A stretch of 42,388 bases of DNA. Source: Gemmatimonadota bacterium (GTDB taxonomy: Bacteria > Gemmatimonadota > Gemmatimonadetes > Gemmatimonadales > Gemmatimonadaceae). Positions 13,952 to 23,033 of this stretch are shown piece after piece; position 1 is the stretch's first letter, and each line of letters opens with the position of its first letter. The notes beneath the pieces are model-generated. The model saw only the letters and a list, made by a program, of their open reading frames with translations, searched no databases and was not told the DNA's origin. A program made the position numbers and the translations under genes. Location: positions 41,510-83,897 of the forward strand of contig QHVE01000052.1 in the NCBI GenBank assembly GCA_003223455.1, given 5' to 3'.

Positions 13952-14380
13952 CTATCGGCTGCTCGTCGCGCCGTCGCTCACATGCAACGTCGCCGTGTCG
14001 GACGCCCCTTCAGGGGGACGCATCAGGACGCGGCCATTCACGACGCCGCCTTCCTGGACAAGGATCGTCTGCGTGAGGATGTCTCCCGTGACGATGGCGG
14101 TCGCCTGCAGCTCGACGCGCTCCGTTGCGTGCACGTTGCCGGTAATCGTTCCTCCGATGACCACTTCTCGCGCGTGGACGTCGCCGGTCATCGTTGCGCC
14201 GACGCCGAGTACGACGGTGTCCGCCCGTCGCACGTTGCCCTCGAGCCTTCCGTCGATCCTGAGCGAGCCGACGGTATCGAGGTCGCCGGTGACGACGAGT
14301 TGGGCGTCGAGCAGCGAGTAGCCGCTGCCGGCGGGGGTAGGGGTCGAAGTGGGGCCGGAGCGCCGGGCGAGAAGGCTCAT
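13952..14380 (-). CDS. bactofilin
   Basis: A 142-residue protein with the bactofilin (DUF583) beta-helix at about residues 25-115. Short repeated strands appear as VVTGDLDTVGSLRIDGRLEGNV, ATMTGDVHAREVVIGGTITGNVHA and ATIVTGDILTQTILVQEGGVVNG, each about 17-18 residues apart. Flexible Pro/Ser/Thr-rich termini flank it. Bactofilins polymerise without nucleotide and recruit wall enzymes to defined membrane sites, affecting cell shape, stalks or chromosome positioning. This one heads an operon with an M23 endopeptidase and a lytic transglycosylase, which favours a wall-shaping role. No strong ribosome binding site precedes the ATG. Confidence 0.93.
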   Translation of the reverse strand: MSLLARRSGPTSTPTPAGSGYSLLDAQLVVTGDLDTVGSLRIDGRLEGNVRRADTVVLGVGATMTGDVHAREVVIGGTITGNVHATERVELQATAIVTGDILTQTILVQEGGVVNGRVLMRPPEGASDTATLHVSDGATSSR

Positions 14381-14500
14381 CTGCGGAAGCGGCTGGGGGG
14401 TGAGATGTCAGCGTGGCGGGACCCGATGGGAATCTGCGCCGGTCGCTCATGCCATCCCCTAGACGCACCAGCCTCAGCCGAAGGCACGCCCTCGCGGCCG

Positions 14501-14516
14501 AGTGACGAACGTCACT
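14501..14516. promoter_or_regulatory. palindromic operator-like site between bactofilin operon and lipoprotein gene
   Basis: AGTGACGAACGTCACT is a 16-base dyad with seven-base perfect arms around AA. A further half-site, GTGACGG, occurs eight bases after GGATCTCC to the right. It lies in the 277-base divergent gap (14381-14657) between the bactofilin operon and the glycine-zipper lipoprotein. The gap otherwise shows only a weak -10-like TATCTA at 14561-14566. Confidence 0.4.
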
Positions 14517-14657
14517 GGATCTCCGTGACGGGTCGATCCGCCGCATCCTGCCGAGCATGGTATCTATGTCGCAGCCGCACGCGGCGGCTGGCACAGGCTC
14601 TGCCTTGTGTATCCGGGCTCGTTTCAAGCGCGAACTGACCACCCCCCTGGAGGTACG

Positions 14658-15164
14658 ATGCGCTCCACTCTGAAGACACTCATTCTCGCCCCGGCGCTCG
14701 CGATCGCGGCAGGATGCAGCAAGGATAAGCCCGCAGATCCAGCGTTGAACAACGATCTCTCCCTCGCCGCGCAGGCGAACCCGAACGCGCGGCTCGATTC
14801 CATCACTGCCGCGGAGCGGATGAATGCCGCCGCGGCGCCAGCACCGAGCAACCTGCGGACAGGAGCGGCGCCAGCTCCCGCGGCTCGGACGACCTCGTCG
14901 TCCACTCGCCGACGCTCGACGTCGAGCAGCAGCGGGAGCAGCGCCGGCAGCAGCAGCGGGTCGACGACCGCATCGCAGCCGCACGAGGTCATCAAGAAGA
15001 ACACGAAGCGTGACGCGGCGATCGGCGCGGCGGCAGGTGCCATCGTCGGCGCGGCGGCGAGCCGGAACAAGGTCAAGGGAGGAATCATCGGCGCAGCGGC
15101 CGGTGGCATCCTCGGCGGCGTGATCGGGAACAATGCCGATATCGAGAAGAAGCGCGTTCCCTGA
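14658..15164 (+). CDS. glycine-zipper lipoprotein
   Basis: A 168-residue protein with a lipoprotein signal (LAIAAGC, Cys20). The middle is disordered and Ser/Ala/Thr-rich. A C-terminal glycine zipper has small-residue repeats (AAIGAAAGAIVGAAASRNKVKGG and IIGAAAGGILGGVIGNN), as in YMGG/SlyB-like outer-membrane proteins. Such proteins insert hairpins into membranes and often have structural or stress roles. GGAGG six bases before ATG 14658 fixes the start. Its function here is unknown. Confidence 0.8.
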   Translation: MRSTLKTLILAPALAIAAGCSKDKPADPALNNDLSLAAQANPNARLDSITAAERMNAAAAPAPSNLRTGAAPAPAARTTSSSTRRRSTSSSSGSSAGSSSGSTTASQPHEVIKKNTKRDAAIGAAAGAIVGAAASRNKVKGGIIGAAAGGILGGVIGNNADIEKKRVP

Positions 15165-15197
15165 GCGGCGTGTTCCCTAGCAGCGCAGCGTGGTAGC

Positions 15198-16652
15198 GTG
15201 AGCTCCCCTCCGCCACGAGAGCTCGGTGGTGGGGAGGAGCGCGTCCCCAACCGGCGACCGGCTGATCTGCCGGCGCCGGAGGGCCAGGCGCTCGTTGAAC
15301 ACCTGGTCGACCGACTGGCGCGCACCGAGCGTGAGCTCAGCGTCGCGCGTCAACTGATCGCCGAGTCCGAGCGTGAGCGTGCGGCCCTGCGCACGGCGAC
15401 TCGGCAGGTCGCCAGCAGCGAGCGCGTGGACAACGTCGAACTGATTCGTCCTTTCCTGCCGGCCCTCGGGAGATGGTGCCTGTTCGATCAGGTGTTCAAC
15501 GGCCACGGCGAGCGGCGGCTGATCACCGCCGACCCCTCCCTCGCCGAGCTCGCGCATTCGGTGGAGGGCGAGCTCGCGCTCGACGGGGACGCGAGCCTGG
15601 GAATCGTGCGTGCGCTTCGTCGGCGTCGTGCCGAACGGCTGGACCACGTGTCGCCACCGCCTCCAGCCATCATTCGCGACGATGCACCGTCGTCGTCGGC
15701 ATGGACCGCGCTCGAGCGCCTCGCCGCGGGACCGGTGCTCGTCGTGCCCATCCTGGTGCGCGGACGCATCGTAGGGGCGCTGAGCTTCGGCCGGCCGGCC
15801 GATCACGCACTCTTCAACGAGCGCGATCAGGGACTGGCCGAGGAACTCGCACAGCTCATCGGACTGGCGCTGGAGCAACAGCGCATCGCGACCGTCGCCG
15901 AGGCGGCGGCTCGCACCAAGTCCGAGTTCCTGGCCATGATGAGCCACGAGCTGCGCACCCCCCTCAATGCGATTGCCGGGTATGCGCAGTTGCTCGAGAT
16001 GGGATTCCGCGGTCCGCTGACCGACGGACAGCGCGACGCCGTGAGCCGCATCCTGCGCGGGCAGGAGCATCTGCTCTCGCTCGTCGACGCCGTGCTCACC
16101 TTCTCGAGGCTGACCAGCGGACGTCTGACGATCGACTCGACCGAGCTCGATGCGGTTGACCTGATCGACACGGCGAGCGAGCCCCTCGTGATGGAGTTCG
16201 CGGCGCACGAGATCGACTTCCGCATCCTGCCGTGCCCCGAGCGCGTGCGGGTCTGCGCCGACAGGGAGCGCGCGGTGGAGATCCTGCGACATCTGCTCTC
16301 GAACGCGCTCAAGTTCACACCGAAGGGCGGTGCGGTGACTGTGGGGTGCGAGGAAGGGGGCGAGACGGTTCGCTTCGTGGTCTCGGATACCGGACGTGGC
16401 ATCCCGGAAGGCCACCGCGACGCGATCTTCCAGCCGTTCGTGCAGGTGGAGAAGGGATTGACGCGGTCGGCCGATGGGAGTGGACTGGGGCTGGCGATCG
16501 GCCGCGAGCTCGCGGAGCGGATGGGTGGAACGCTCACCATGACGAGCGAAGTGGGCTCCGGCTCACGCTTTGTCCTCTCGCTGATACGGGCGCCCCAGGA
16601 CGGCGGGGAACCGGCCTCCGGCGCGATTGACATGGTTTCCGACGCCGGCTAG
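15198..16652 (+). CDS. soluble sensor histidine kinase with GAF-like domain
   Basis: A 484-residue cytoplasmic kinase with no membrane helix. A coiled coil (about 30-70) and GAF-like sensor (about 85-225, ending AGPVLVVPILVRGRIVGALSFGR) precede the HisKA domain. The H-box FLAMMSHELRTPLN places the phosphorylated His at 250. The ATPase domain has the N-box at Asn369 (LLSNALKF), G1 as DTGRGIP (397-403), the F-box FQPF, and G2 as GSGLGLAI (427-434). All catalytic motifs are intact. No response regulator is adjacent, so it is an orphan. The GTG start at 15198 has no strong ribosome binding site. Its last bases contain the promoter of the following ribosomal protein gene, and the stop TAG is part of that -10 element. 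Confidence 0.92.
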   Translation: MSSPPPRELGGGEERVPNRRPADLPAPEGQALVEHLVDRLARTERELSVARQLIAESERERAALRTATRQVASSERVDNVELIRPFLPALGRWCLFDQVFNGHGERRLITADPSLAELAHSVEGELALDGDASLGIVRALRRRRAERLDHVSPPPPAIIRDDAPSSSAWTALERLAAGPVLVVPILVRGRIVGALSFGRPADHALFNERDQGLAEELAQLIGLALEQQRIATVAEAAARTKSEFLAMMSHELRTPLNAIAGYAQLLEMGFRGPLTDGQRDAVSRILRGQEHLLSLVDAVLTFSRLTSGRLTIDSTELDAVDLIDTASEPLVMEFAAHEIDFRILPCPERVRVCADRERAVEILRHLLSNALKFTPKGGAVTVGCEEGGETVRFVVSDTGRGIPEGHRDAIFQPFVQVEKGLTRSADGSGLGLAIGRELAERMGGTLTMTSEVGSGSRFVLSLIRAPQDGGEPASGAIDMVSDAG

Positions 16653-16655
16653 TAT
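16627..16655 (+). promoter_or_regulatory. near-consensus sigma-70 promoter for rpsU-infA
   Basis: TTGACA at 16627-16632 is a perfect -35 element. TAGTAT at 16650-16655 follows after exactly 17 bases and matches the -10 consensus at four or five positions depending on the form used. The promoter lies inside the end of the histidine kinase gene; its -10 contains the kinase stop codon TAG (16650-16652). Transcription should begin near 16662. Confidence 0.75.
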
Positions 16656-16668
16656 ACGGGGCTGCGTT

Positions 16669-16727
16669 GCCCGCGCGCGCGGTGCTCCGGCGACGGTCGC
16701 CGAGTCGCCCGCGCGGGGCTCTTTTTT
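16669..16727 (+). terminator. terminator-like hairpin with T-run in the rpsU leader (possible attenuator)
   Basis: GCCCGCGC at 16669-16676 can pair with GCGCGGGGC at 16711-16719 with one bulge. It encloses an inner hairpin with arms CGGCGAC and GTCGCCG (16688-16102 region: 16688-16694 and 16696-16702). T6 follows at 16722-16727. The 3' part alone can also fold as GCCC-gcgcg-GGGC. Because it lies downstream of the rpsU promoter, it should stop or attenuate rpsU transcripts rather than just end the kinase message. Confidence 0.55.
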
Positions 16728-16797
16728 CATTTCAGGGCACCGACACGCGGCAATTCCTCGCGCCCACGGCGCGAACCACAGGGGGAAGGACGCACTG

Positions 16798-16986
16798 ATG
16801 GTCGAGATTCATCTCGAAGAGAGCGATCGCCTCGATTGGGCGCTCAAGGCGTTCAAGCGCAAGATCGCGAAGGCGGGGATCCTGAAGGACCTCCGAAAGA
16901 AGCGCTACTACGTGAAGCCGAGCGAGGCACGGCAGCTGAAGGCGGCCGCGGCCCGTCGCCGCAGCCGCACCGAGCGCGCGCGCTGA
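16798..16986 (+). CDS. rpsU: 30S ribosomal protein S21
   Basis: A 62-residue basic protein matching bS21: VEIHLEESDRLDWALKAFKRKIAKAGILKDLRKKRYYVKPSEARQLKAAAARRR. S21 joins the small subunit late and helps base pairing of mRNA with the 3' end of 16S rRNA. GGGGGAAGGA seven bases upstream supports ATG 16798. It is followed 26 bases later by infA, so two factors of translation initiation are co-transcribed. A strong promoter and a terminator-like hairpin precede it, suggesting transcriptional attenuation. Confidence 0.96.
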   Translation: MVEIHLEESDRLDWALKAFKRKIAKAGILKDLRKKRYYVKPSEARQLKAAAARRRSRTERAR

Positions 16987-17012
16987 GCCAGACCGGCTAG
17001 CGCAAGGTCCGG

Positions 17013-17234
17013 ATGGCGAAAGAAGACGCGATTCAGCTCGAGGGCTCGGTCACGGAGGTGCTCCCGAACGCGACGTTCCGGGTGCAGCTGACCAATGGCC
17101 ACAACGTACTCGCCACGCTGGGCGGCAACATGCGGCGCTTCCGCATCCGCGTGCTGGCGGGTGACCGTGTGACGATCGAGGTCTCTCCGTACGACCTGAC
17201 CCGCGGTCGCATCACCTTCCGCCACAAGAACTGA
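17013..17234 (+). CDS. infA: translation initiation factor IF-1
   Basis: A 73-residue single OB-fold protein, the usual IF-1 length. Characteristic segments are [64 protein letters not shown]. It binds the 30S A site during initiation and is essential. It follows rpsU on the same transcript and is closed by a strong hairpin just after the stop codon. The family usually has ISGKMR where this has LGGNMRRF, a modest variant. Confidence 0.97.
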
Positions 17235-17242
17235 CGAGCACG

Positions 17243-17268
17243 AGCGACCCGCCTCCCGGCGGGTCGCT
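17243..17268. terminator. bidirectional terminator between infA and the MATE gene
   Basis: AGCGACCCGCC (17243-17253) and GGCGGGTCGCT (17258-17268) form an 11-base perfect stem with a TCCC loop, lying between two convergent genes. Only a short T-rich stretch (GCGTTTCT) follows on the plus strand. Confidence 0.75.
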
Positions 17269-17279
17269 GCGTTTCTGGC

Positions 17280-18662
17280 TCAGGCGCCCGACGCCGCGCT
17301 CGACAACCGCGCTGGGGTGGCGGATTCCACGCGCTCCAGCGTGCCGCGCAACCGCGAGCGCACGCGCAGAAGCAGCAGCGTCGCGACCGCAGCCAGCCCC
17401 GCGACGAGGCCCCACCACAGGCCCATCGCTCGCAGCGGCGTGTGGAACGCCAGCGCGACGCTCACCGGGAACCCGCACAGCCAGAAGCCGGCAAGGTTGA
17501 TGACGAACGGCGCGCGGGTGTCGCCGAGGCCGCGAAGCACACCGACGCTCACAGCCTGGATCCCGTCGAACAGCTGAAACATCCCGGCGATCGGGATCAG
17601 CGTGGCGGCGATCGACGCGACCGTTGGCTGATTCGTGTAGGCCGCGGCGATGACGGCCGGGATGGCGAGCATCGTCACGGCCGTGCAGAGCATGAACGCC
17701 ACGCCGAACACGAGGGCCGTCCGCGCACGCTCGCGCGCCGCACCAACGTCTCCCTCACCGACCGCGTGACCGACGCGCACGGCCGCCGCAGCGCCGACTC
17801 CGAGCGGCACCATGAAGGTGAGGCTCGAGAGGTTCAACGCGATCTCGTGCGCCGCCATCTCGGGTGTACCGAGGAGTCCCATCAACAGCCCGATGGCGGC
17901 GAAGACGCCGAATTCCAGTACCTGCTGAACGCCGATCGTCCAGCCGAGGCGGAACATCCGCGCGAGCGATGCGACCTGGAATGCCTCGCGCTTCCATGGA
18001 ACCAGCGCGCCGCGCAGCACGGGCCACCCGCCCACGAACAGCAGCACCGTCATCGCCCAGCGGCTCGCTACGGTGGCCCACGCGCTTCCCGACACGCCCA
18101 TCGCGTCGACGCCGAGATGACCGTAGACGAGCACCCAATTGAGCCCGACGTTCAGCAGGTTCCCCACCACGACGACGGCCACCACGGCGCGCACCCGATG
18201 CAGCGCCTGCAGGCTCTGGCGAAGCACGACGAAGCCGAGGAAGGGAAGCAGTCCTGCGATGGAGACGCGCACGTACGTCGTCGCCAGCTCGATCAGCTCG
18301 GGGGGCTGGCGGAACAGCACGAGCACCTGCCGAACGGGCCAGAGCAAAATGGCCGTTGGTAGCGCGAGCAGCGCGGCGAGGAGCAGGCCGCGCTGCACAC
18401 CCAGCGCGATCCGATCGGCGTCGCGCGCCCCCGAGGCCTGCGACACGATGGGATCGAGCACCATGAGCGTGCCCGCGGCCGCGGTGCTCACCGTGTAGAA
18501 ATAGAGGTTGCCCAGCGCGACGGCCGCGAGCGCCGCGGCCGACACGCGTCCCACCATCACCGTGTCGACGACGCCCATCGACATCATCCCGATCTGCGCG
18601 AGAACGATCGGCATCGCGAGGCGAGCCGTGGCTGCGAGCTCGGTACGATTTGGGAGACGCAT
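17280..18662 (-). CDS. MATE-family multidrug efflux transporter
   Basis: A 460-residue protein with 12 predicted membrane helices in two MatE repeats, the normal size for the NorM group. The N-terminal segment LAMPIVLAQIGMMSMGVVDTVMVGRVSAAALAAVALGN is typical. The second half begins around GVQQVLEFGVFAAIGLLMGLLGTPEMAAHEIALNLSSLTFMVPLGVGAAAAVRVGHAVGEGD. It should export cationic drugs or metabolites in exchange for Na+ or H+. The start at ATG 18662 matches the family; the same frame stays open further upstream but would overlap the divergent gene. Only 51 bases separate the two divergent starts. Confidence 0.93.
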   Translation of the reverse strand: MRLPNRTELAATARLAMPIVLAQIGMMSMGVVDTVMVGRVSAAALAAVALGNLYFYTVSTAAAGTLMVLDPIVSQASGARDADRIALGVQRGLLLAALLALPTAILLWPVRQVLVLFRQPPELIELATTYVRVSIAGLLPFLGFVVLRQSLQALHRVRAVVAVVVVGNLLNVGLNWVLVYGHLGVDAMGVSGSAWATVASRWAMTVLLFVGGWPVLRGALVPWKREAFQVASLARMFRLGWTIGVQQVLEFGVFAAIGLLMGLLGTPEMAAHEIALNLSSLTFMVPLGVGAAAAVRVGHAVGEGDVGAARERARTALVFGVAFMLCTAVTMLAIPAVIAAAYTNQPTVASIAATLIPIAGMFQLFDGIQAVSVGVLRGLGDTRAPFVINLAGFWLCGFPVSVALAFHTPLRAMGLWWGLVAGLAAVATLLLLRVRSRLRGTLERVESATPARLSSAASGA

Positions 18663-18713
18663 GACGCGAGCGAGGTGGGACGGATCGGCCGGACTGGTGT
18701 ATGACAGTAACTT

Positions 18714-20042
18714 ATGCCCATGTGCCCCACGCCCACGGCGACGATCGTCGTCGCGCTCGCCTTGCTCGTCGGGGTGCCGTTTGCGGCTCGTGCACAGCAC
18801 GAGGGCCATGCGACATCGATCGCTGCGGACAGCACCAACGACACGCGACCGAACGCGTGGCATGGCATGGTGCAGGCGATCCCGATCGTGACCCACGCCG
18901 AGAACACCGCCGAGGGAGCCGATCTCGCCGAGGGGTACCTCTCGCAGGCGGCGGCGATGGGAAAGGGCGATCTGTTGTCCGGACATCTCCGTCTCGAGGC
19001 GACGCTCAACGCCGAAGGGCTGACGATGTCGCGCGGCGAGCTGTCGACCGGCGCGTTCGGCGAGGGGTTCGTCGACCGGAGGCATCCGCACGCGTACGTG
19101 CACGAGCTCGTCGCCTCGGGGCTTGGCTCACGTGGTCCTCTCGCCTACTCGCTCAGCGCCGGCCGCGGCTTCGCTGCATTCGGCACGGACGACCCCATGA
19201 TGCGGCCATTCGAGAAGTACCCGATCAACCATCATCTCTCGCAGATCCTCGAGCGCCCGATGATCACCGGTGCGATACGGTTCGGGCGCGCCATGCTGGA
19301 CGCGAGCAGCTTCGGCGGGGACGAGCCGACCTCGACTGGCTCGCCGCCATTGCTTCGCCGGCTCGGTGACTCCTGGTCGGTGCGCGCGACGGCGATGCCG
19401 GTGACCGGCATCGAGGTGCAGGGGAGCTACGCGCGCGTGGCGTCGCCGGAGCAGCGGGAGGGGTTCGGCCTCGATCAGCACAAGCGAAGCGCGTCGGCGC
19501 GTTTCATCTCCGCCGACGGGGGCCGCTATCTGCTCGGCGAGTGGGCACGCACCGTGGAGCGCGACCACGGACGCAACGAAAACGTGTTCGCGTACGAGAG
19601 CGCGCTGATCGAGGGCGCAGCCACGATTCGCACCGTGAGCGTCGCGCTGCGCCTCGAGCAGACGGAGCGTCCCGAGGAGGAGCGCCTGAGCGATCCCTTT
19701 CGCGTGCCTCGACCCGCGGCTGATCTCGGGATCAGCGGGGTGACGCGCTGGCGCACCGCCACTCTCGCCCTCACGCTGCCGTCACCGACCTCCGGGCCGA
19801 TTCGAGGGTATCCCTTCATCGAGGTCGAGCGCGCCAGCGCGCGCGCGCGCGACGCCCGCAGCGTCTTCGACGCAGAATCGTTCTATCGAACCGGCTCGCC
19901 GTGGATGCTCACTGCGGGTGCTCGACTGCGCTTCGGTCCGCTGCATGCACGGATGGGGCGCTACGGAGCGGCGGTGCCGGCGGGACCGGCCATCCGTGCC
20001 CTGGGAATAGCCGACGGCGATCCCACGTCCCACCATCACTGA
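18714..20042 (+). CDS. exported, probably outer-membrane protein with His-containing termini
   Basis: A 442-residue protein with a signal peptide (TATIVVALALLVGVPFAARAQ). The mature start QHEGHA and the extreme C-terminus SHHH are His-rich. The body has many alternating-residue stretches of about ten residues (SGHLRLEATLNAE, WSVRATAMPVTGIEVQGSYARV, TIRTVSVALRLEQTE, WMLTAGARLRFG), as in beta-barrels. A conserved-looking DRRHPHAYVHELV segment lies near residue 122. No named family is recognised; a metal-related or porin-like role is possible but unproven. Two ATGs (18714, 18720) are usable and no ribosome binding site precedes them, so the message may be leaderless. Confidence 0.7.
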   Translation: MPMCPTPTATIVVALALLVGVPFAARAQHEGHATSIAADSTNDTRPNAWHGMVQAIPIVTHAENTAEGADLAEGYLSQAAAMGKGDLLSGHLRLEATLNAEGLTMSRGELSTGAFGEGFVDRRHPHAYVHELVASGLGSRGPLAYSLSAGRGFAAFGTDDPMMRPFEKYPINHHLSQILERPMITGAIRFGRAMLDASSFGGDEPTSTGSPPLLRRLGDSWSVRATAMPVTGIEVQGSYARVASPEQREGFGLDQHKRSASARFISADGGRYLLGEWARTVERDHGRNENVFAYESALIEGAATIRTVSVALRLEQTERPEEERLSDPFRVPRPAADLGISGVTRWRTATLALTLPSPTSGPIRGYPFIEVERASARARDARSVFDAESFYRTGSPWMLTAGARLRFGPLHARMGRYGAAVPAGPAIRALGIADGDPTSHHH

Positions 20043-21455: not shown

Positions 21456-23033
21456 ATGCTTCGTCCCCGCACCGCGGCCGCCGCGTCGCTGCTCCTCATC
21501 CCGCTGGTCGCGGGTGGCTTCTTCCTGCAGAAGACGCCGGTTCCCGCGACGCCTCGGCTGTTCGACCAGGTGATCTCGCTCGTCGCCAACCGGTACGTGG
21601 ACTCACTGCAGGGCTCGGCGATCTTCGAGAAGGCCGCCCACGGCCTCGTTCGCGAGCTCAACGATCCATACAGCGAGCTGCTCGCGCCCAAGCAGAACGA
21701 CGAGTTCAACCGCAGCGTCGGCGGACGCTACGGTGGCGTCGGCATGCTGCTCGAGGAGCAGAAGACCACGGGAACGACGACGGTCGTCGTGAGCCGGGTG
21801 TTCCCCCACACGCCGGCGGAGGATGGCGGGGTGCGCGAGGGAGACCGGATCATCCAGGTCGACTCGCTGCCGATCGTCGATACGAAGATCGACAAGGTGT
21901 CCGACGCACTGCGCGGGATCGCGGGCACGACGGTGAAGGTGACGTTCGCACGCCCGGGCGTGGCCGAGCCGGTGAAGCTGGCGTTCAAGCGCGCGGTGAT
22001 CCACGTCCCCGCCGTGCCGTTCGCCGTGATGCTCGGCGACAAGGTGGGCTACATCCCGCTGCAGACGTTCAATGAGAATGCGGCGGAGGAAGTCGAGGCA
22101 GCGGCGGCGAAGCTCGTGAGCGACGGCGCGCGCGGTATCGTGCTCGATCTGCGCGACAACGGCGGCGGGATCGTCGACCAGTCGCTCGCCGTGAGCTCGC
22201 TGTTCCTCAAGCGTGGGCAGTCGATCGTGAACGTGCGCTCGCGGAACGCGCCGGAGGAAGTGGCGCGCGCGTCGGGCGACCAGCTGCCGACGCAGCCGCC
22301 GATGATCGTGCTCACCGACGGCGGCAGTGCCTCGGCGAGTGAGATCGTCGCGGGCTCGTTGCAGGATCACGACCGTGCGCTGGTGGTGGGCACGACGAGC
22401 TTCGGCAAGGGACTCGTGCAGTCGGTGTTCCCGCTCGACGGCGGCTACGCGCTGAAGATCAGCACGCTCCTTCCCGATGGGCGATTCGTGGAGTCGCGTC
22501 CCGATTCGCTCGAGACCGAGGCGGAGAAGCGCGCGCGGCCGAAGTACAGCTCCGACGCCGGACGCACGGTGTACGGTGGCGGCGGCATCACCCCCGATCT
22601 GCTCGTTCCCGACGACACGCTGGTCACGGCGGAGCAGGAGTTCCTCAAGTCGATCGCGCCGAAGGCGCAGTCGTTCGTGACGGTGCTCAACCAGTACGCC
22701 TTCGATCTGAAGGGATCGGCAGCGCGCACCTTCACCGTGACGCCGGCGTGGCGCACGGAGCTGCGGCGCCGATTGGGCGCGGCCGGTGTGACGATCGACG
22801 CCAAGTACGAGCCGGCAGCGACGCGGATTCTCGATCGCGAGCTCGATCGCCGCGTGGCGCGCTACGTCCTCGGCGACGCGGGTGCGAAGCAGCGCGCGTT
22901 GGCGGAGGACCACCAGCTTGCTCGCGCGGTGAGTCTGCTCGCCGGGGCGAGCTCGCAGGAGCAGCTGTTCACGGCGGCGGGCGTGACGTCGGCCGCCTCC
23001 GCTCAGCGGAGCACGAGCACGAACCAGCGATAG
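21456..23033 (+). CDS. C-terminal processing protease, S41 family
   Basis: A 525-residue protein. An N-terminal signal or anchor (AAAASLLLIPLVAGGFFLQ) is followed by a helical region, a PDZ domain (VVVSRVFPHTPAEDGGVREGDRIIQVDSLPI), and the S41 protease core. The catalytic Ser lies in GGSASASE and the Lys in SFGKG, 25 residues later, as in CtpA/Tsp. RGIVLDLRDNGGGIVDQS is the conserved strand before it. A further helical C-terminal domain of about 130 residues is typical of longer CtpA members. It should trim C-termini of periplasmic proteins. GGAGG nine bases upstream supports ATG 21456. A terminator-like hairpin lies just upstream of that site. Confidence 0.93.
   Translation: MLRPRTAAAASLLLIPLVAGGFFLQKTPVPATPRLFDQVISLVANRYVDSLQGSAIFEKAAHGLVRELNDPYSELLAPKQNDEFNRSVGGRYGGVGMLLEEQKTTGTTTVVVSRVFPHTPAEDGGVREGDRIIQVDSLPIVDTKIDKVSDALRGIAGTTVKVTFARPGVAEPVKLAFKRAVIHVPAVPFAVMLGDKVGYIPLQTFNENAAEEVEAAAAKLVSDGARGIVLDLRDNGGGIVDQSLAVSSLFLKRGQSIVNVRSRNAPEEVARASGDQLPTQPPMIVLTDGGSASASEIVAGSLQDHDRALVVGTTSFGKGLVQSVFPLDGGYALKISTLLPDGRFVESRPDSLETEAEKRARPKYSSDAGRTVYGGGGITPDLLVPDDTLVTAEQEFLKSIAPKAQSFVTVLNQYAFDLKGSAARTFTVTPAWRTELRRRLGAAGVTIDAKYEPAATRILDRELDRRVARYVLGDAGAKQRALAEDHQLARAVSLLAGASSQEQLFTAAGVTSAASAQRSTSTNQR

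Follow-up and report, generated by a model that had tools for sequence, protein, structure and literature searches.

Within the window, the whole 42,388-nt stretch of DNA that was analysed, the ribosomal protein gene rpsU and the initiation factor gene infA are preceded by a histidine kinase gene on the same strand, and the coordinates given for this locus in an earlier note were all correct. The window is 68% GC and belongs to a Gemmatimonadota genome (G000) of 4.96 Mb in 127 contigs. The features of the locus, in order along the forward (+) strand, are as follows.

15198-16652, + strand: histidine kinase gene (GAF, HisKA and HATPase_c; ORF and domain calls); its stop codon TAG (16650-16652) doubles as the first three bases of the rpsU -10 box
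16627-16632, + strand: -35 box TTGACA of the rpsU promoter, found in 9/9 genus leaders, with TTGACT in one
16650-16655, + strand: -10 box TAGTAT of the rpsU promoter; TAGTAT or TAATAT in 9/9 genus leaders
16660-16663, + strand: GGCT at the expected transcription start (position predicted), invariant in 9 genus leaders
16661-16683, + strand: possible transient 5' hairpin overlapping the 5' terminator arm (-11 kcal/mol by prefix folding; weakly supported and without conservation)
16669-16719, + strand: P1, a two-tier terminator-type hairpin of 51 nt (-38.5 kcal/mol)
16720-16727, + strand: T tract TCTTTTTT, TC followed by T6 at 16722-16727, holding the single T6 run of the window
16758-16774, + strand: P2, hairpin TCGCGCC-CAC-GGCGCGA just 5' of the Shine-Dalgarno region, with a hairpin at the same place in 7/9 genus members
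16781-16790, + strand: Shine-Dalgarno region GGGGGAAGGA, read from the sequence
16798-16986, + strand: rpsU (bS21, PF01165), 62 aa, start codon ATG at 16798 (ORF and domain calls)
17013-17234, + strand: infA (IF-1, PF01176), 73 aa (ORF and domain calls)

The earlier note had proposed a TTGACA-17-TAGTAT promoter overlapping the kinase stop codon, and this arrangement was confirmed. A promoter scan of positions 14000-20000 returned it as the lone sigma-70-like site, with 0.3 expected in shuffled sequence, and found no promoter-like site between the T6 run and rpsU. Of ten genus genomes that were examined for rpsU, nine, including that of the window, had a usable leader. All nine keep the pattern TTGACa-17-TARTAT-N4-GGCT, with the same 17-nt spacing as in the window and diverged spacer sequences, and judged by this conservation the promoter is genuine. 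In L003 and L007 the kinase terminates in the same TAG/TAA, while L004 and others have another gene upstream. Because it is only partly shared among congeners, the overlap between the kinase stop codon and the -10 box is a by-product of the end of the kinase gene and no part of rpsU control.

The predicted terminator (16669-16727) lies between this promoter (16627-16655) and the gene it drives (rpsU, from 16798), the placement of an attenuator. As in an intrinsic terminator, the GC-rich P1 hairpin is immediately followed on the coding strand by a T run (16669-16719, then TCTTTTTT). The GC-rich two-tier hairpin and T6 that had been reported ahead of the rpsU ribosome binding site were recovered at 16669-16719 and 16722-16727, with the Shine-Dalgarno region following at 16781-16790. 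P1 extends from about 9 nt past the predicted start (16661-16663) to near +58; the T6 run begins 2 nt past the stem, a gap that may weaken the terminator. This run is the sole T6 on either strand of the 42,388 bases, and a hairpin of -35 kcal/mol or lower preceded 0 of 1200 random positions. Relative to dinucleotide shuffles the stability of P1 is unremarkable (z about -1 to -2); the unusual feature is the hairpin paired with a T run, not hairpin stability. P1 falls outside the stem and loop limits of a simple terminator scan, which did not return the site. The possibility that P1 is a repeated genomic element was rejected, its best other match being a 40-base partial.

A scan of the whole of G000 for SSSNN-T6 gave 19 distinct sites, about 10 of them with a proper hairpin. 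Read in context, six of the nine hairpin-T6 sites other than that of rpsU lie in leaders resembling attenuators (thr, his and two tandem Cys-type). The nine are listed below.

L251 1291-1569 (G000 C53, ~22237-22515): thr-type attenuator, with TTGACA-17-TAGTCT and the leader peptide MIASSRNTYTRMTTTTTPCRGGGAHSV, which contains MTTTTTP, then an aspartate kinase gene
L252: his attenuator, with a leader peptide containing RTHRHAQLHH, then hisG
L254/L255 (C57 61844, 62105) and L261/L260 (C62 47214, 46924): tandem pairs ahead of an OsmC-like or rhodanese-like gene
Cysteine-synthase-like gene and tRNA-Ile: sites at 3' ends (context reading)
Upstream of a csp gene: the remaining site (context reading)

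At both tandem loci a short ORF MICRLLPPR is followed by a terminator, a second Cys-containing short ORF, a further terminator and then the gene, an arrangement resembling a duplicated two-stage attenuator of the cysteine type. Gene ends elsewhere have a different character. In ~212 kb of G000, a hairpin was present at 51 of 57 convergent gene ends and at least five T occurred in the next eight bases at 0/51, these counts being approximate as the genes were called by a simple GC3 rule. The absence of T-rich tails at convergent ends implies that T6 is not the usual gene-end signal in G000, and from these contexts hairpin plus T6 is mostly a leader signal. A comparison of 7/7 with 0/51 was discarded as circular, the seven sites having been chosen by their T6. 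Since T6 is unique in the window, and the hairpin-T6 combination is rare genome-wide and concentrated in 5' leaders, the rpsU leader likely contains an intrinsic terminator. In G000, with its high GC content, a T6 tail marks mostly leader terminators and so offers a cheap attenuator finder.

P1 exceeds the remaining T6 leader hairpins of G000 (-12.7 to -20.8 kcal/mol) by a wide margin in both length and stability, and published mean terminator energies are -16.5 for 5' and -20.2 for 3' terminators (PMC2965389). This strength argues against easy regulated read-through and is more in keeping with a fixed, leaky barrier than with a finely balanced switch. A very stable hairpin is also more typical of 3' terminators (PMC2965389), and P1 starts 17 nt beyond the kinase stop codon, a normal position for a 3' terminator; two of the hairpin-T6 sites in G000, at the cysteine-synthase-like gene and tRNA-Ile, are themselves 3' ends. 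P1 and T6 could then terminate the upstream kinase transcript, with the rpsU promoter happening to lie inside the kinase end so that rpsU transcripts also have to read through. However, ordinary gene ends in G000 are without T-rich tails, and the congeners L003 and L007 have the kinase at the same place without such a terminator. A kinase terminator is considered rather unlikely.

When the same detection rule was applied to all nine genus leaders, the T tract was found in one, that of the window's genome; the leader of L046 has a weaker TCTTTTC. A hairpin at the P1 position is present in 6/9 genus members, and the six P1 segments have a mean z of about -1.7 against dinucleotide shuffles. The leaders of L005 and L044 are short, with neither P1 nor P2. 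The hisG leaders (L290-L298) served as a positive control and keep a His-rich leader peptide, hairpin and T tract in 9/9 genus members in which hisG was found, G000 included. Because the T tract at rpsU occurs in 1/9 genus members while the his attenuator is kept in 9/9, comparison of the leaders does not support a conserved attenuation switch at rpsU. This stop signal, which the transcript would meet within about 65 bases of its start, probably arose recently in one species and acts there as a leaky brake.

Alternatively, P1 may be a hairpin that stabilises or spaces the 5' end, with T6 arising by drift and causing little termination. This would suit five of the other eight genus leaders, in which a hairpin begins near +9 but no similar T tract follows; two leaders have neither hairpin. 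Against this, the sole T6 in 42 kb sits exactly behind P1, and such a passive role is judged improbable. The P2 hairpin is better kept than P1; it occurs in 7/9 genus members, its stems changed yet still complementary in most and weak in L004, and is possibly a translational element of rpsU. In congeners, the equivalent of P2 (16758-16774) is often preceded by CAGCATC.

The earlier note had suggested attenuation of rpsU-infA, and this survives in part. The conserved promoter, the hairpin with its T6 and the lack of a later promoter-like site agree with it, such that regulated attenuation at rpsU is possible; a conserved device is not borne out, with the T tract in 1/9 leaders and two leaders lacking P1 and P2. 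The covarying alternative stems for which related leaders were to be compared are not supported. No conserved alternative pairing was found in the nine genus members, and P1, despite hairpins at the same place in 6/9, is too variable for a trustworthy alignment or a test of covariation. Nor was a conserved antiterminator structure or sensor found in these nine, the leader of the window showing only the weak transient hairpin. In prefix folding, this hairpin (+1 to +23) would occupy the 5' arm of P1 until transcription reaches the 3' arm. It lacks conservation and offers no more than a hint. Leader-peptide attenuation, in which a ribosome would act, was excluded because P1 begins about 9 nt from the expected start and leaves no room for an ORF.

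A sensory attenuator, in which the choice between P1 and read-through is set by the competing 5' hairpin or by one particular protein, namely S21, a cold-shock protein or NusA, would draw on the overlap of the transient hairpin with the 5' arm of P1 and on the csp-terminator-rpsU gene order of several genera. In E. coli, Csp proteins attenuate intrinsic termination, and CspD raises terminator read-through at several leaders (PMC9765468). The genus, however, has no conserved alternative pairing, leader peptide or conserved protein site in its rpsU leaders, and a sensory attenuator is judged distinctly improbable. A stable functional small RNA of ~65 nt as the terminated product, also raised in the earlier note, would have its own promoter and terminator and a fitting length, but it is nearly entirely terminator hairpin, is not conserved in congeners and has no Rfam match (no covariance model reached its gathering score in the window, and no relevant family matched the leaders at E<=0.5), leaving it very improbable.

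The explanation favoured here, at about even confidence, is that a lineage-specific leaky terminator in the leader lowers rpsU-infA output from this locus, perhaps conditionally. The conserved growth-type promoter TTGACA-17-TAGTAT-N4-GGCT would drive rpsU-infA, and P1 (+9 to ~+58) with its T6 tail would act as an intrinsic terminator in the species of G000 but not in its congeners. Most transcripts from this promoter, together with read-through from the kinase, would end near 16722-16727, with the fraction reading past the terminator forming the rpsU-infA mRNA. The level of read-through could plausibly be varied by general factors such as cold-shock proteins, NusA and NusG, and the cell would tolerate the lowered output by means of additional gene copies.

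G000, alone among ten genus members, several of which are incomplete drafts, has a second rpsU, which follows csp on contig C118, and a second infA, on C62. A contaminant origin of this additional rpsU was rejected, as the composition of the C118 stretch that carries it is like that of the window and the genome. Given these spare copies, a lower output from the rpsU-infA locus of the window would be tolerable, a correlation seen in one genome. The genus in this way offers a contrast between one species with T6 and spare rpsU and infA and nine congeners without spare copies. Across genera, a leader terminator accompanied two rpsU copies in 5/10 versus 1/10, which was not significant (p = 0.14).

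Among other genera whose rpsU belongs to the same sequence group, a terminator within 150 nt upstream was found in g16 (L031), g20 (L008, L010), g21, g26 (L014), g34 (L018, L019) and L040. In g21 it is present in 4/4 genomes, as GGACCY...RGGTCC-T7/8, which precedes the start codon by about 38 nt and lies behind TTGCYA-17-TAGCTT; the rpsU leaders of g21, g16 and L040 all have the terminator behind a promoter-like site. Control leaders (S20, S15, L21 and Cpn10, 30 each) contained a terminator in 3/120. With one genome per genus and the window's own genus left out, the rpsU frequency was 4/19 versus 3/120 (p = 0.007); this replaced a test of 6/20 versus 3/120 (p = 0.0003) that over-counted genera. 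Without the csp-linked cases the comparison was 2/19 versus 3/120 and not significant, and in two of the four genera the terminator follows csp and may belong to it. The order csp-terminator-rpsU occurs in g20 and g34. In L008-L010, L014, L018, L019, L022 and L032, csp is the gene directly 5' of rpsU, and the short gap between them contains a strong hairpin or terminator. Transcription must therefore enter rpsU either by read-through or from a promoter that precedes the hairpin. In the divergent rpsU group there was no comparable terminator except two weak matches (L093, L101).

A broader reading is that in the Gemmatimonadaceae rpsU(-infA) has repeatedly come to lie behind leader terminators (g16, g21, L040 and G000, with csp-terminator-rpsU in g20 and g34). 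Cold-shock proteins, or some other antitermination factor of general action, would increase read-through and so tie the supply of bS21 and IF-1 to cold or growth state, and the terminator-only attenuator would re-evolve its hairpin from genus to genus. This extension is speculative and judged unlikely.

Among known systems, the rpsU leader resembles, in having an intrinsic terminator between the promoter and a ribosome-related operon and no visible antiterminator or sensor, the rimP-leader and other terminator-only translation-operon leaders (Naville and Gautheret 2010, PMC2965389). The rimP-leader, however, has a GGGc...gCCC stem conserved across phyla, whereas P1-T6 lacks conservation even among congeners and greatly exceeds the mean 5' terminator in stability (PMC2965389). 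Premature termination in a ribosomal protein operon leader, predicted at rpsU, is shared with the rplJL-type attenuators of B. subtilis, but there the encoded protein binds the leader and structures compete (PMC4538822), neither of which was found in the rpsU leader. The thr/his/cys-type leader-peptide attenuators of G000 (L251, L252, L254, L261) likewise place hairpin and T6 in a 5' leader downstream of a promoter; in contrast, the rpsU leader allows no peptide and has a longer hairpin that is unconserved in congeners. In Flavobacterium the same gene is controlled through its 5' leader by translational autoregulation, with bS21 acting via an extended Shine-Dalgarno sequence (PMC9976891). That control is translational and based on the Shine-Dalgarno sequence, whereas by sequence appearance the rpsU Shine-Dalgarno of the window is ordinary (GGGGGAAGGA) compared with AAGGGGGGA in the divergent rpsU group of the family. 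Control of rpsU is little known outside Bacteroidota, and a 2024 review describes its regulation in E. coli as still unknown (PMC10931766). If true, a leader terminator in an rpsU-infA unit with one promoter would offer a simple means of adjusting the dosage of bS21 and IF-1.

The leaders of the divergent rpsU group (group 2, L069-L120) have a TTG/GTG start codon and a -10-like TAACTT followed by GGCT. Many also carry a small GGCGC...CGCC stem and then AAGGGGGGA, an extended Shine-Dalgarno sequence like that of Bacteroidota bS21 autoregulation. The tRNA-Ile promoter TTGACT-17-TAATTT-N4-AGCT (L264 1339-1400, reverse strand orientation) resembles the rpsU promoters, which have GGCT at that place, and stable-RNA and ribosomal protein genes in the family possibly have a common start-site signature.
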